38,487 bases of DNA from a virus. The number at the start of each line of letters is the position of its first letter. Position 1 is the stretch's first letter. The stretch covers positions 1 through 38,487 of IMG/VR virus record IMGVR_UViG_3300035667_000104. One strand, 5' to 3'. Below, one piece after another: positions 5,078-35,272 of this stretch. The notes beneath the pieces are model-generated. The model saw nothing but the letters and a program-made list of their open reading frames with translations, was not told where the DNA came from and made no database searches. Both the position numbers and the translations under genes were made by a program.

Positions 5078-6184
5078 CTACTCGTCGGAGAGAGAAGACA
5101 GACCGGCGTGGAGTTGCCGCAGGACTTCGATGCTCGCCGCCGCGACCTCGGGCCGCCGCGACCGACCGCGCAGTGGATGGTGACGTTCGAGTAGCAGCGC
5201 ACGGTTGGCGCCCGTTGCCGCGTGGGCGTAGACCTGCGTCGAGCTCGGAGACCTGTGCCTCAGGTGCTCTTGCACCTCGCGGAGATGAACGCCCGCCGCG
5301 ACCAGGTGCGTAGCGATCGAGTGGCGCAGGATGCGGGCCGAGAGGATGCGCCCTTTAGCTTCTATCCCTTGCTCGCGGCAGCGACGCGCGACGATCTCAC
5401 TCACGCCCCATCGCGAGATCCCACCCACCACACGCGACCCTCGGAACGACGGGAAGAGCCAAGGCACCGCGCCGGGGCCGAGCAGCTTCTGGCGCAGAGC
5501 AAGGTACGCCTCCAACACGCGCGAAGCATCGCCCTCCAGGTACACGCACCGGTCCTCGTTGCTCCACTTCGCCTCCCGCACGATCAAGGCGAGCAGACGG
5601 TCCACCCGAGAGCCTCGGGGAATCTCGACAACTTCGACGTCCTCTGGGAACCGTAGCGCCCCGACCTCGCTGGGGCGCAGGCCTGCGTAGTAGGAGCACG
5701 CCAGGATCGCTCGGTCTCGCGCCTCGACGGGGTCGCTACTGGTGAGCGGACCGGACGCCCCGTACGACAACAGGCGCTTGACCTCGGCCGTAGTTAGGTG
5801 CTGAGCCTGGCGGCGATAGCGGCGAGGACCGCGCAGTCCGAGAGTTGGGTTGCGATCGAGTTGGCCGTGATCGGCTAGCCAGGCGCCAAACGAACGGACC
5901 GCGGCCACCGCTTGAGCAATCACCGCAGATCCCCGACCGCCCAGAGAGAGACGATGTAGGTGTCGCTCGATCCCCGCCAGGTCGAACCCTCCCTGGTCTC
6001 GGACAAGCCGCTGCACGAGGAACGCGTACCGGCTGCAGGTCGAAGCTGAAAGGCCCCGCGATCCAGCCAGGGCGCCGAGCCATTGTAACAGGTACCTGTC
6101 ACAATGTTCAACAGTAAACCCAGCAGAATCAACAACTTGCGTTTTACGGGACTTGTCGGTTGCGGATTGCCGTGGCCTGCTCAC
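5078..6184 (-). CDS. int: Tyrosine site-specific integrase
   Basis: A 368-aa phage integrase that joins attP to attB through a tyrosine-DNA intermediate. The N-terminal SAM-like core-binding domain covers about residues 28-115, with the catalytic domain after residue 128. Catalytic residues visible: R170 (YYAGLRPSE), K206 (REAKWS), R287 and H288 (ILRHSIATHL), H310 (HLRHRS), and nucleophile Y319 (TQVYAHA). The first His of the HxxR box is Arg (R284), a tolerated variant. The open frame runs further upstream, but that part reads as shadow of the terminase gene. GTG 6184 is the last in-frame start before the core-binding domain. Its start is only 14 bases from the divergent terminase start, so the start call is weak. 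It is the single leftward gene between early and late operons. Confidence 0.93.
   Translation of the reverse strand: MSRPRQSATDKSRKTQVVDSAGFTVEHCDRYLLQWLGALAGSRGLSASTCSRYAFLVQRLVRDQGGFDLAGIERHLHRLSLGGRGSAVIAQAVAAVRSFGAWLADHGQLDRNPTLGLRGPRRYRRQAQHLTTAEVKRLLSYGASGPLTSSDPVEARDRAILACSYYAGLRPSEVGALRFPEDVEVVEIPRGSRVDRLLALIVREAKWSNEDRCVYLEGDASRVLEAYLALRQKLLGPGAVPWLFPSFRGSRVVGGISRWGVSEIVARRCREQGIEAKGRILSARILRHSIATHLVAAGVHLREVQEHLRHRSPSSTQVYAHAATGANRALLLERHHPLRGRSRRPEVAAASIEVLRQLHAGLSSLSDE
6081..6106. promoter_or_regulatory. 26-bp near-perfect palindrome inside integrase 5' end
   Basis: The half-sites CATTGTAACAGGT and ACCTGTCACAATG match as an inverted repeat with one mismatched pair (A versus G). 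The site lies about 93 bases upstream of the small-terminase start and inside the integrase coding region. On the minus strand it contains TACAAT, a near-consensus -10, with TTGAAC 18 bases upstream. A regulator bound here could control the late operon, the integrase, or both. That the late promoter should be nearby follows from the lack of space between the divergent genes. Confidence 0.55.
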
Positions 6185-6198
6185 GGGGTGACCGTACC

Positions 6199-6840
6199 AT
6201 GTCAGAGACCAACGAACCGCCGAAAAAGAGGGGCCGCCCGAAGGGCAAGCCGCTCTCTCCGGCCGAGCGCGCGCAGCGGCGAAACGCGCCGCGGCGGCAT
6301 GGTCTCTATGCGACCACGGCGGCGGGTCAAACCCTGCCACCGTGCAAGCGAAAGGCATGCCCCGCCGAGGCTTCGGACCGCGGCGGGTTCGATCGTTGCG
6401 AGGTCCGGCGCGCCGTTCAGTCGCGCGGTGGCGCATTGGAGGGCTGTATCGTGGCCCTCGTAGCAGATTCGGCCGTCCTTGCCGCCTACACCAAGGCTCT
6501 CACCACCGGCGATTTGGCCGAGCTCGGACAGCTCGAAGCGCACACCTTGGCCAAACTGGCCACGCTTCGAGACCAAGAGCTCGACAAGATCCACGACGAG
6601 GGCGGGCTTGCGATTGATCAGTCCGTTTTCGACGGTGAGGGTGAAGAGACCGGCTCGCGTAAAGTTGAGAACCCTCGCGCGAAACCGTTTCTTGCGCTCA
6701 ACCAACAGGTAGGGTCGACGGCGAAGGATAACGCCATCACGCCGTCGTCCAGGGCCGAGAAGGGCTTGAACGAAGGACTCACCGACGCCGCCCGCCGTGC
6801 CTGGGTCGACAAGATGCGTCTCGGCGTGGAGGCGGAGTGA
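6199..6840 (+). CDS. Probable terminase small subunit
   Basis: A 213-aa protein immediately ahead of the large terminase, with a GTGA overlap. The N-terminus is very basic (KKRGRPKGKPLS, then RAQRRNAPRRHGLY), like the DNA-binding or AT-hook-like start of many small subunits. The middle is helical (residues about 85-140), and the C-terminus is polar. The small subunit recognises the packaging start site and feeds the DNA to the large subunit. Assignment rests on position, size and basic N-terminus, since these proteins are poorly conserved. ATG 6199 was chosen over an in-frame ATG at 6160 because the added residues look non-coding. Confidence 0.65.
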   Translation: MSETNEPPKKRGRPKGKPLSPAERAQRRNAPRRHGLYATTAAGQTLPPCKRKACPAEASDRGGFDRCEVRRAVQSRGGALEGCIVALVADSAVLAAYTKALTTGDLAELGQLEAHTLAKLATLRDQELDKIHDEGGLAIDQSVFDGEGEETGSRKVENPRAKPFLALNQQVGSTAKDNAITPSSRAEKGLNEGLTDAARRAWVDKMRLGVEAE

Positions 6841-29485: not shown

Positions 29486-29902
29486 TCAGTTAAAAACAAA
29501 CTCAGAGCCGAACTGCTCCCGGTGCGCTACCAGGTAGGCGTCCACGAACTTCTGCGGCGGGCAGGGCGCAAGTTCCGAGTGGAGCCTCTCTCGGATATCG
29601 TCGTCCATCAGGTTGACGACGGCGTCGAAGGGCTGGGATCTCCCGGCGATTTTGACTAGCTGAGGACGGCCACCGAGGAGACCGTTTCGCCGCGATGCCT
29701 CGGCTTTGACTTCGCTCGTCGCCTTGCCGCCCTCGCTGCCCAACTGGGCGGCAAAGCGGTAGGACTCGACGGCACTTTTTATGGTGGCGAAACCGACGCC
29801 GTCTTGCGTCGGCTCCCTGCCGTCCGGCGCCGTCGCCCGGAAAACCCCGTTCTCATGTTGCCACAACACATAGGCTCTCTCACGCCGAATAATCCGCCAC
29901 AT
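29486..29902 (-). CDS. Hypothetical protein with GGRP motif; second gene of leftward pair
   Basis: A 138-aa protein. Residues 48-80 carry the motif FAAQLGSEGGKATSEVKAEA then SRRNGLLGGRP, a GGK...GGRP pattern I know from short bacterial proteins of unknown or regulatory function. The C-terminal 50 residues (NLMDDDIRERLHSELAPCPP on) look like a compact helical domain. It starts 1 base past the stop of the upstream gene, so both form one transcription unit controlled from 30346-30375. A toxin-antitoxin-like or anti-defence pair is a possible reading; the sequence does not prove it. Confidence 0.7.
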   Translation of the reverse strand: MWRIIRRERAYVLWQHENGVFRATAPDGREPTQDGVGFATIKSAVESYRFAAQLGSEGGKATSEVKAEASRRNGLLGGRPQLVKIAGRSQPFDAVVNLMDDDIRERLHSELAPCPPQKFVDAYLVAHREQFGSEFVFN

Positions 29903-31408: not shown

Positions 31409-31444
31409 CGCGAGGGGCTGCGTCCCGCGGCTCCTCGCGTGTTT
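31409..31444 (+). terminator. Strong hairpin terminator after peptide gene
   Basis: A 13-bp stem (CGCGAGGGGCTGC at 31409-31421 with GCGGCTCCTCGCG at 31427-31439; two G-U pairs in RNA), a 5-base loop and TGTTT after. It ends the short rightward peptide transcript and probably also the leftward TPR transcript, whose stop codon is at 31444-31446. Confidence 0.7.
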
Positions 31445-32475
31445 CACGCCCGGCGAATCAACCGTCTCGCCTCAACCGCGAGAGCAGCGAGTAGGCCCGT
31501 CCCTTTGTCCGCGCGTTCACTGGCGGCCCGGAGGATTGCCAGAGCTAGACCAGTCCTGCAGACGCCCGAATTGACCAGCAGCGTCTGCGCTTCAATGGTG
31601 ACCCTTCGCGCAACGATCGGACGCCCCGCGAGGGTTTCGATGGCTGCCAAATCCAGACTGGCCAGTGCCGCATTCTTAAAGTCTCCGATGACAGAGAGCC
31701 CCTCCCGCGCCTGTTCCATGTGTGCTCTCGCCGCTGAATATGCCTCTAGGCCTGCCAGGACTCGGCCGCGTAACCAATCCAACTGGATCGCAGCACGCGG
31801 CCCACCGGATTCGATGAGATCCTCGCGAGCAGATAGTGCCGCCAAGATCTCAACCGCTCTGCGGCTGTCACCCGTGTCAGACAGCGCGGAGACCGTCGCA
31901 TGCAGCGCCGCAAGGACAAGCACGGGGCCGTCGACGCGGTTCAGTGCAAACCTCAGGAAGGGGAGGGCGCCAGCAGGCTCCCCGGCGTACCGCAGGACAA
32001 TGCCGGTTGAGAGGGCGACCTTACCCTGCCCTGCCGTGTCGCAGAGTTGCTCTCGGCGCCTCATAGCAGATCGCGCGGCCGTCAGCGCGGCCGTCCAGTC
32101 CTCGGCACCCTCATGTATCCAGATTGAGAGTTCTTCTGCCAATGCGCGCGTGGGATCCGCTTGCTGCCCGGCGCGGTCCAGCTCCAACTTCGCCGACGCC
32201 ATTTCGAGCCGCGCGGCGCGGATGTCGCCGGCGCAGCGGTGGGCGTTGGCGAGATAGGCCCGGGCGCGGCCACGAATTTCATGGCACTCATGCCCTTCAC
32301 CTAGGTTGGACGAGAGGGCCAGCGTGACAGCTCGCGCTGCCAGTGCCTTCATTTCCGCGATGTTCGAATGTCGCTTTGAGTAGGACAATTCGAGGAGTGT
32401 TTCAATCGTCTCTAGCCGAGCCGCGATCGCGCTAGGTCCCGCTGTCGGCCGGTGGGCGAGGCGAGCGGCCCTCAC
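31444..32475 (-). CDS. TPR-repeat protein, partner of XRE repressor
   Basis: A 343-aa all-helical protein made of degenerate tetratricopeptide repeats: MKALAARAVTLALSSNLGEG, then IRGRARAYLANAHRCAGDIR, GKVALSTGIVLRYAGEPAGA, LHATVSALSDTGDSRRAVEI, and RGRVLAGLEAYSAARAHMEQ. The helix-turn-helix pairs of about 35-40 residues with A/G at the usual contact positions support TPR. GTG 32475 overlaps the XRE stop (GTGA), so the two proteins are probably made together and bind each other. TPR domains of this length form the peptide-binding part of RRNPP receptors (Rap, PlcR, AimR), but there HTH and TPR are in one chain. No HTH or catalytic motif seen. Confidence 0.75.
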   Translation of the reverse strand: MRAARLAHRPTAGPSAIAARLETIETLLELSYSKRHSNIAEMKALAARAVTLALSSNLGEGHECHEIRGRARAYLANAHRCAGDIRAARLEMASAKLELDRAGQQADPTRALAEELSIWIHEGAEDWTAALTAARSAMRRREQLCDTAGQGKVALSTGIVLRYAGEPAGALPFLRFALNRVDGPVLVLAALHATVSALSDTGDSRRAVEILAALSAREDLIESGGPRAAIQLDWLRGRVLAGLEAYSAARAHMEQAREGLSVIGDFKNAALASLDLAAIETLAGRPIVARRVTIEAQTLLVNSGVCRTGLALAILRAASERADKGTGLLAALAVEARRLIRRA

Positions 32476-32897
32476 GTCTCTTTCCTCTTGCGCACCCGCC
32501 GCTTTGGGTCGCCGATCCTGTCAAGAGCATCGAAAGCTGCTCGTTCGACGCTCTGGCCCTCACCTCGGCGCTGCCCTCCGACCACCTCAAACAGCTCTTC
32601 CACGACTTCACCAAACCGCTGAACCAATCTCTCTTTAATTACGTCGTCGGAGGGCTCTTTGTCCTTGCCCCTGCGCCCCTGAACCTTCCCTAGTTCGGCA
32701 GCCAAATCCTCGACCGTTGCGCCCATGGCCTCCAGTACCCGCCCCAGAGTGTCGGCTGTCGGGTTCTCGCGGCCGGTCATGTATCCGCTCAACATGCCAG
32801 GAGAGATCTCGGCGCGCTGAGCGATCTCTCCATTCTTGAGGCGCGACACCCGCCGTAGCTGCTGGAGGGCCAAGTGGAGGCCTGCAAACGCGTTCAT
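32472..32897 (-). CDS. XRE-family HTH repressor (lysogeny regulator)
   Basis: A 141-aa protein with an N-terminal XRE/Cro helix-turn-helix at residues about 8-68 (LKNGEIAQRAEISPGMLSGY, then ENPTADTLGRVLEAMGATVE). The C-terminal half is charged with a helix (QRFGEVVEELFEVV) and ends basic. It lacks the LexA-type peptidase domain of CI repressors, so SOS cleavage is not expected, and release could depend on the coupled TPR protein. ATG 32897 lies about 3 bases past the predicted start of its mRNA. It is divergent from a Cro-like gene, the classic phage switch layout. Confidence 0.85.
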   Translation of the reverse strand: MNAFAGLHLALQQLRRVSRLKNGEIAQRAEISPGMLSGYMTGRENPTADTLGRVLEAMGATVEDLAAELGKVQGRRGKDKEPSDDVIKERLVQRFGEVVEELFEVVGGQRRGEGQSVERAAFDALDRIGDPKRRVRKRKET

Positions 32898-32987: not shown

Positions 32988-33278
32988 ATGGCGATTCGGA
33001 TTCTGACGGTTGGTCAACAAGCATTCGCGGACGCCTGCTGCCGCGTGGGCTTGCCGAGCGTCGCCGAGAGTCTCGGGGTTTCGGTGGGCTACGTTTCGAA
33101 GCTCGCAAACGGCCTAGGCAAGCCGAGCGGGGAGTTTCGAACCAAGATTCTCGAAAGGCTCAAAATTAGGCCCGAACATTGGGACGCCGTCGTCGACACA
33201 ATCCGCATCAAGCCCCGTCCGTCCCCATTGCGGGACGCCAAAGAGCGGAAGCGAGTAGCCGCCGGGGGTGCCCAATGA
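32988..33278 (+). CDS. Cro-like HTH regulator, first gene of the early operon
   Basis: A 96-aa protein with a helix-turn-helix at residues about 18-55 (LPSVAESLGVSVGYVSKLAN, then GEFRTKILERLKI) and a basic C-terminus (RDAKERKRVAAGGAQ). It faces the XRE repressor gene across a 90-bp operator region, as Cro faces CI in lambdoid phages. ATG 32988 lies at the predicted transcription start. The stop overlaps the next ATG (ATGA). Confidence 0.78.
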   Translation: MAIRILTVGQQAFADACCRVGLPSVAESLGVSVGYVSKLANGLGKPSGEFRTKILERLKIRPEHWDAVVDTIRIKPRPSPLRDAKERKRVAAGGAQ

Positions 33279-34261: not shown

Positions 34262-34426
34262 ATGACCATTGCAGTGGAGATAGAGCATTCCGCGACGCCC
34301 AAACAACCCACGCCAACCTGGGTCATACAGGAGATCCAACTGATCAGTGCCGATCCGGATATTTATCGGATCGCGTTTCGGAACCGAGAGACCGGCGAGT
34401 TGGTCGACTCGGATATCAGTTTTTAG
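34262..34426 (+). CDS. 54-aa hypothetical protein with strong RBS
   Basis: CGAAAGGAGAAGACC precedes ATG 34262, almost the same leader as in front of the RiPP-like gene at 34460 (CGAAAGGAGCAAGCC). The protein is mixed alpha/beta (WVIQEIQLISADPDIYRIAF, then NRETGELVDSDISF), acidic and probably cytoplasmic. Third positions are about 65% G+C, lower than its neighbours. The reading frame is open upstream, so a longer form cannot be excluded. The shared leader suggests that both small genes belong to one cassette. Confidence 0.55.
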   Translation: MTIAVEIEHSATPKQPTPTWVIQEIQLISADPDIYRIAFRNRETGELVDSDISF

Positions 34427-34459
34427 GACGGATGTTCAACCGCTCGAAAGGAGCAAGCC

Positions 34460-34684
34460 ATGAAGGTCAGTGGGAAAAAAAGAGTTTTGACACTGAACCG
34501 AGAAACCTTGCAGTCGCTGGACCAAGACCTCACGGGGGTTGCGGGAGGGGTCTCGCATTACGGTGAGGTGTGCAACACGACCTCCACTCGTTCCGTCGGT
34601 GACTGTACCGGGTATTGCCCCAGCTACTTCACTTGCGCCCCGGATTGCATCATCTACGTTCGTCCCGCTCTCAACACGCCCTAG
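34460..34684 (+). CDS. Lanthipeptide-like RiPP precursor peptide
   Basis: A 74-aa peptide. Residues 1-30 form a leader of the class I lanthipeptide/GG-leader type: basic start, LTLNRETLQSL, acidic helix, then GVAGG as cleavage site. The core (31-74) has five Cys (38, 49, 53, 59, 63) and nine Ser/Thr before the last Cys, with CNTTST, CTGYCPSYFTC and CAPDC. That is what dehydration and lanthionine ring formation, or other Cys crosslinking, would need. GGAG lies about 8 bases before the ATG. No LanB, LanC, LanM, radical-SAM or transporter gene is in the window, so maturation would depend on the host. A non-modified Cys-rich small protein is the alternative. Confidence 0.7.
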   Translation: MKVSGKKRVLTLNRETLQSLDQDLTGVAGGVSHYGEVCNTTSTRSVGDCTGYCPSYFTCAPDCIIYVRPALNTP

Positions 34685-34790
34685 ATCGTCGACGGTAGCC
34701 GCTCGTTCCTCCGGGCGGGCGGCCTCCGCGGACGATCAACGTAACAAACTGTTTCCTCTGGCCCGCATGGCCGGAATGGAGGCGCAAGCG

Positions 34791-35093
34791 ATGGACACTC
34801 TCCGGGGCGAAAGCTCCGCTAGCGACGAACCCAGGGCCACCAAGCCGTGTCCCTTTACTCCCTGCACCGCGATCCTCCTGGGTGCGCAGGAGATCTTCTG
34901 CTGGAAGCATTGGCAGAGAGTGCCCAGCGACCAGCAAGGTCCCCTCCGCAAAGCCCACGCCGAGATGCAGTCGCAGCCCCACAACCCCATGCCGCGTCGC
35001 AGGTTTCTCGATCTCCGCTTAAAAGCCATTGGCTCTATCGCGAAGGCATTGGCAGCGGTCGCAGCGCCGACCTTTCGGAGGAGATCCGCGTGA
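34791..35093 (+). CDS. Small zinc-knuckle-like phage protein
   Basis: A 100-aa protein from ATG 34791, with GGAGG 8 bases upstream; ATGs at 34767 and 34776 are in frame but lack such a site. The motif CPFTPCTAILLGAQEIFCWKHW gives a C-x4-C ... C-x2-H arrangement, and RVPSDQQGPLRKAHAEM follows. This CxxC..HW..vP pattern occurs in many small phage proteins. It is a relative of the protein at 35583 in this window. The basic C-terminus (FRRRSA) may bind nucleic acid. Confidence 0.6.
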   Translation: MDTLRGESSASDEPRATKPCPFTPCTAILLGAQEIFCWKHWQRVPSDQQGPLRKAHAEMQSQPHNPMPRRRFLDLRLKAIGSIAKALAAVAAPTFRRRSA

Positions 35094-35272
35094 GCATGAG
35101 TGAGTTCGACTGCCAACCCTGCGAGGGCAAAGGCGAGGTGCTCGCCTGCGGCGCCGGCGAGTTCGTTTGTAACCAGGGCTGCGACAGCCTAGACAAGTGC
35201 GTGCGCGGCGCCGTTTGGGTGACCTGCGTGGACTGCGACGGAAGCGGCGCGGCGCGGAGGCCGGTCCAATGA
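35090..35272 (+). CDS. 60-aa zinc-ribbon protein with DnaJ-type CxxCxGxG motifs
   Basis: GTG 35090 overlaps the previous stop; GGAGGAG lies just upstream. It contains CQPCEGKGEV near the start and CVDCDGSG near the end, with CNQGC in between, the motif type of DnaJ zinc-finger regions. These small early proteins may act as chaperone-like or nucleic-acid-binding factors. Stop overlaps the next ATG. Confidence 0.6.
   Translation: MSMSEFDCQPCEGKGEVLACGAGEFVCNQGCDSLDKCVRGAVWVTCVDCDGSGAARRPVQ

Follow-up and report, generated by a model that had tools for sequence, protein, structure and literature searches.

A putative class I lanthipeptide precursor gene carried without modification enzymes by a temperate phage

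The Precursor Gene and Its Surroundings

The window, i.e., the whole stretch of 38,487 nucleotides analysed here, is the record of a temperate phage, with genes for an integrase, terminase, portal, capsid, tail, DnaB, and a DnaC-like ATPase. In its rightward early region lies a small gene whose features, with those of its neighbors, are collected in Table 1. The initial annotation, made from the letters alone, had placed here a 74-aa product with a GG-type leader, a core with five Cys and many Ser/Thr, and a ribosome-binding site of its own, and these points were all confirmed. Translation of the window gives a frame that opens with an ATG at 34460 and closes with a TAG at 34682-34684; the leader, KRVLTLNRETLQSLDQDLTGVAGG, ends in VAGG, and the 44 aa that follow contain ten Ser/Thr besides the five Cys. 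The AAAGGAG motif is a strong ribosome-binding site, 6 nt upstream of the ATG.

Table 1. Features of the precursor locus and of the adjoining immunity region
Feature	Position	Strand	Basis
XRE-type repressor, immunity region, likely start 32897	32472..32897	-	PF13560/PF01381
Cro-like regulator, first gene of the rightward early region holding the precursor	32988..33278	+	PHROG 35, 7241
54-aa gene just upstream of the precursor, similar ribosome-binding site, same direction	34262..34426	+	sequence
Ribosome-binding site AAAGGAG	34447..34453	+	sequence
lanA-like precursor gene, 74 aa (MKVSGKKRVLTLNRETLQSLDQDLTGVAGG, then VSHYGEVCNTTSTRSVGDCTGYCPSYFTCAPDCIIYVRPALNTP)	34460..34684	+	translation; leader-profile scores
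Precursor leader, residues 1-30, GG site at end	34460..34549	+	alignment, profiles
Precursor core, residues 31-74 (5 Cys, 6 Thr, 4 Ser)	34550..34681	+	sequence
Strong hairpin from the precursor stop codon on, no U tract	34684..34737	+	-39.2 kcal/mol, z -5.0

When aligned with its family, the leader keeps all of the invariant residues (L..L..ETL..L...GG). Each of the five core Cys has a Ser or Thr at most eight residues on its N-terminal side, and the reading frame combines a GG cleavage site with a core whose Ser/Thr and Cys are able to form rings. As for the signals around the gene, no sigma-70 consensus promoter was found near it, and the hairpin that begins at its stop codon has counterparts elsewhere: the 70 nt 3' of the stop reach -34.9 kcal/mol or lower in 23 of 61 precursors, the one in the window being counted in, versus 5% of random 70-mers drawn from host loci. 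Strong hairpins are thus enriched 3' of host precursor genes too.

The 54-aa gene upstream matches no family, and two nearby early genes (34791-35093 and 35096-35272) also encode small, Cys-containing proteins. Other genes deserve a mention in their own right. Among the leftward genes beside the repressor is one (29486-29902, minus strand) for a protein of 138 aa that in its C-terminal part matches the anti-CRISPR family AcrIC5 (PF22147, E 3.8e-19), a possible counter-defence gene. The gene that overlaps the repressor gene (31444-32475, minus strand) encodes a 343-aa protein with no Pfam family, apparently helical and repeat-rich, that may be part of the immunity switch. A weak serine-recombinase match (PF00239; 2803-3576, plus strand) occurs besides the tyrosine integrase (5078-6436), and a DUF5131 protein (PF07505; 37639-38487, plus strand) occupies the right end of the record. 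No tRNA suggesting an integration site was found in the window.

The initial annotation had also proposed that the phage has no modification enzymes. This agrees with the domain searches: LanB, LanC, and C39 domains are absent from the window record, which is linear, so that a short stretch between its ends may be missing, and Pfam scans of most of the window proteins revealed no RiPP enzyme. Modification and export genes beside the precursor, the arrangement of the sublancin type, were therefore not found in this record.

Is the Leader Match Real?

Lanthipeptides are small peptides that bear rings and in many cases act as antibiotics. The leader family in question is NF038153 (lant_leader_L1a), the NCBIfam model of a class I lanthipeptide leader. 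The precursor reading frame falls below this curated model, and nothing meaningful was returned for it by NCBIfam, Pfam, PHROGs, or PADLOC. No curated model is reached by the reading frame itself, and its tie to NF038153 runs through its host relatives. A match to CglD (E 0.02) was taken as chance, as it is confined to a small part of a model of 1124 positions.

The seeds of a first leader profile had been chosen by the motif of the window itself; being partly circular, this profile gave way to an independent one made from 32 host leaders at loci found with NF038153, with the carriers of the window motif left out. This profile gave the window precursor 25.4 bits (E 3.3e-7 among 672 window reading frames), while the runner-up in the window obtained 4.5 bits, and the top score among 5000 composition-preserving shuffles was 5.7 bits. 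Since the score lies far above both the shuffles and the other reading frames, the match stands clearly apart from chance. A profile of 15 precursors, the window protein among them, gave E 8.4e-19. It should be kept in mind that the alignment used in this search (A1) takes in the window protein and that of viral contig G500, so that their two E-values are not independent, while the proteins of contigs G499, G504, and G505 lie outside it.

How specific is the motif? A scan for LTLNRETLxxL in one genome per species (84,980 species) gave 31 matches, only four of which are short reading frames that have a start, a double-Gly site, and Cys in the core. These four all belong to Acidobacteriota, and each of them matches NF038153, two exceeding the curated cut-off and two falling short of it. 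A tblastn search with the precursor in phage and plasmid records returned matches at chance level only. Taken at the level of sequence, the assignment to the class I lanthipeptide precursors, suggested in the initial annotation, is well supported, and the profile search revealed a clear similarity to a RiPP leader family.

Likely Host and Phage Relatives

Which bacterium does the phage infect? Isolated phages are distant (32% identity in TerL, about 25% in the portal), and a TerL search in the phylum gave distant relatives only. The portal search then led to syntenic prophages: the portal shows 41% identity to proteins of genomes G003 and G032, where prophage fragments share the order of the integrase, TerS, TerL, and portal genes with the window, and in G003 the synteny extends to the protease and capsid genes as well. 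The search for relatives found no integrated copy of the window phage. Its closest relatives are thus prophage fragments in one class of Acidobacteriota, and this distant synteny (about 40% amino acid identity) makes an Acidobacteriota of the Thermoanaerobaculia/UBA5704 kind the most likely host.

The window has structural genes in common with three viral relatives, G501, G502, and G503, and with G502 DnaB as well. In G502, DnaB, integrase, and terminase follow the same circular order as in the window; the window is therefore probably a permuted and possibly slightly incomplete genome. None of the three has the precursor gene, which for this reason is best seen as accessory cargo, not needed by the lineage.

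Precursors and Enzymes in the Host Group

The initial annotation had expected the precursor to rely on host enzymes, and the genomes examined argue in favor of this idea. G003 (Holophagales UBA5704), which harbors one of the syntenic prophage fragments, has 11 precursors of the family together with LanB, LanC, and C39, so RiPP enzymes do occur in a host of related phages. The survey was based on the class of genome G001 (Thermoanaerobaculia MAG GZL_HYHR_2_bin.39), which comprises 149 genomes. NF038153 leaders were found in ten of these and LanB in 22, and all ten leader-bearing genomes are among the 22 (hypergeometric p 6e-10). LanC is likewise present in all ten, and so are C39 exporter-peptidases, which are widespread and hence less telling. 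The enzymes absent from the phage are thus found in every leader-bearing genome of a host group that was itself assigned through distant synteny. On a single 10-kb contig of one genome (G089, C255), C39, six precursors, LanC, and LanB stand side by side, and this neighborhood places the leader family with the class I lanthipeptides.

Most host precursors are found elsewhere. Of 61, only 13 have a LanB gene at a distance of 10 kb or less, and 48 do not. In G001, G002, and G092 taken together, 45 of 46 precursors have no LanB that close on their own contig, a count that is weakened for G001 and G002 by their short contigs; the contigs of G092 are longer, and there 17 precursors are spread over 14 contigs, one precursor being near LanB. 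Because most host precursors are solitary, a precursor without neighboring enzymes is the usual state in this group. In the host genomes, the precursors are dispersed away from a few shared enzymes, the pattern of modification in trans known from prochlorosins. Full-length LanB proteins, with the N and C domains of Lant_dehydr, are encoded at L174:4618-7956 (G092:C75) and L177:5879-9193 (G003:C101), both near a gene that reads, by eye, like chorismate synthase; it is as if one LanB at a fixed chromosomal place served scattered precursors in these two genomes.

Precursors on Other Viral Contigs

Is the window phage alone in this respect? Searches of viral contigs with the single sequence of the precursor or of TerL gave no matches, and neither did the first leader pattern or its KETLR variant. 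It was with looser leader patterns that other phage precursors emerged from the viral contigs. Lone precursors occur on two contigs unrelated to the window phage, and the records of both are devoid of LanB, LanC, and C39. The first, G499 (64.7 kb), encodes MRRLTLSRETLRNLTESSLRRVVGGESNQDGCTTTDWCTETCNNTNCNCPTGVFTVCGHVDSAARTGCI, which obtains 40.1 bits with the independent profile; its gene, which has an AGGAGG site, is located 3' of the tape measure gene and is preceded by a terminator and by a TTGACA-18-TATTGT promoter. The second, G500 (53.2 kb), encodes MRKTTKLILDRETLRSLETVRMQEVRGGSPDASQNTDCATGSTQAPYACPSDACPTMGPCDLSFGPCV, with 29.5 bits; on the same strand, at a distance of a few kb, are genes for recT and an exonuclease. 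Their NF038153 scores are below the cut-off.

G499 has in addition a leader-only reading frame, MSRKLKLTRETIRLLAVQALD, at about L178:12622-12687, preceded by GGAGGATAGC before the ATG. Its ribosome site is good and a core is absent, so that it could be a decoy or a decayed precursor. Two further contigs, G505 (L259:2396-2536, minus strand, and L260:5869-6009, plus strand) and G504 (L261:8564-8785, minus strand), hold short reading frames with RETL/KETL leaders and Cys-rich tails. These are possible carriers as well, and weaker candidates, for they have no clear GG site and, as they were picked up through pattern matches, their scores are less independent. With at least two unrelated phages besides that of the window, the borrowing of host peptide-modifying machinery by phages looks like a recurring theme.

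Proposed Function and Alternatives

What does a phage do with a precursor and no enzymes? The reading we favor, and consider probable, is that a temperate phage carries a class I lanA gene alone and that LanB, LanC, and C39 of the host mature and export its product in trans. The phage would provide the substrate only. A host LanB would read the leader and dehydrate Ser/Thr of the core, LanC would join the five Cys into thioether rings, and cleavage after VAGG and export of the product would fall to a C39 exporter-peptidase. An infected or lysogenic cell would in this way gain a new peptide from enzymes already present, the precursor being accessory cargo. We infer that the window peptide undergoes modification and export, and that antagonism or signalling would be the gain. 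The position to the right of the cro-like gene points to expression early in the lytic cycle, which is less in keeping with a bacteriocin of the lysogen. This substrate-only cargo is the most economical reading, and a decoy comes next.

As a decoy, the precursor would occupy LanB and LanC early in infection and so blunt an anti-phage lanthipeptide of the host, with no need for a useful product. The early-region site beside the immunity genes would suit such a role, as would the leader-only reading frame of G499, and according to a review (PMC12360287), actinomycete lanthipeptides, including those of Streptomyces, block the late transcription of phages. However, the window gene has kept VAGG and a full core, with a Ser/Thr before each of the five Cys as in host precursors, and a decoy needs neither. 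Moreover, we know of no anti-phage lanthipeptide in the host group considered here, and on balance we regard a decoy as unlikely.

Perhaps the gene is simply a relic or a neutral passenger, a host precursor acquired by chance and without a role for the phage. The related phages that do not have it, and the GC contents of the gene (0.56) and of its 54-aa neighbor (0.53), both lower than that of the window (0.66), point in this direction. The intact frame, ribosome site, leader invariants, and core, along with lone precursors in at least two other phages, speak against it and make it improbable. A signal or regulator of the lysis-lysogeny decision, by which a matured and exported peptide would report on infected neighbors, accords with the adjoining repressor and Cro-like genes; it is nevertheless quite improbable, as Pfam scans of most window proteins recognized no receptor or peptide importer, and the precursors of the other phages lie in tail or recombination regions. 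That the product is an ordinary small Cys-rich phage protein (e.g., zinc-binding) with a leader match by chance, as its two small Cys-containing neighbors and the silence of the curated models might suggest, is largely refuted by a leader score far above the shuffles and all other window reading frames, and is very improbable.

Relation to Known Systems and Outlook

Prophages are known to encode maturation enzymes together with the peptide in clusters of the sublancin type. The window phage differs from these in carrying the substrate alone, and such carriage is consequently missed by cluster-based searches, which recognize enzymes. The likeness is that a temperate phage encodes a peptide, in the window case a putatively modified one, that can benefit the lysogen: sublancin is encoded by prophage SPbeta (PMC10516654), and a passage of PMC7616364, citing Dragos 2021, refers to prophage bacteriocin clusters. 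In Synechococcus, prochlorosins derive from many precursors with conserved leaders and variable cores that are handled by one promiscuous enzyme (PMC10783134). Scattered precursors served by a shared enzyme are also the situation suggested for the Acidobacteriota host group, but prochlorosins rely on the class II enzyme ProcM and a Nif11 leader, whereas here the enzymes are LanB and LanC of class I and the precursor is phage-borne.

The nearest counterparts are the NF038153 precursors of Acidobacteriota, which, like that of the window, have an L.L.RETL..L....VAGG leader and a short core rich in Ser, Thr, and Cys, and are often solitary genes. The window gene differs from them in being located on a phage and below the curated model, and its leader carries additional residues ahead of LTL and is one residue shorter in the stretch leading to VAGG. 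A literature search, not an exhaustive one, found no report of enzyme-free lanthipeptide precursors on phages.

A broader proposal can be put forward tentatively: phages of lanthipeptide-rich bacteria might commonly carry enzyme-free precursors and reprogram in-trans LanB and LanC for peptides of their own specification, either to arm the lysogen or to counter a defence by anti-phage lanthipeptides, leader-only decoys like that of G499 included.

Known phage-borne bacteriocin clusters have been recognized by their enzymes, and a phage that brings the substrate only is invisible to such searches. The reading favored here would show how mobile elements can supply one enzyme set with new peptides, and it would make a role of lanthipeptides in defence and counter-defence testable.
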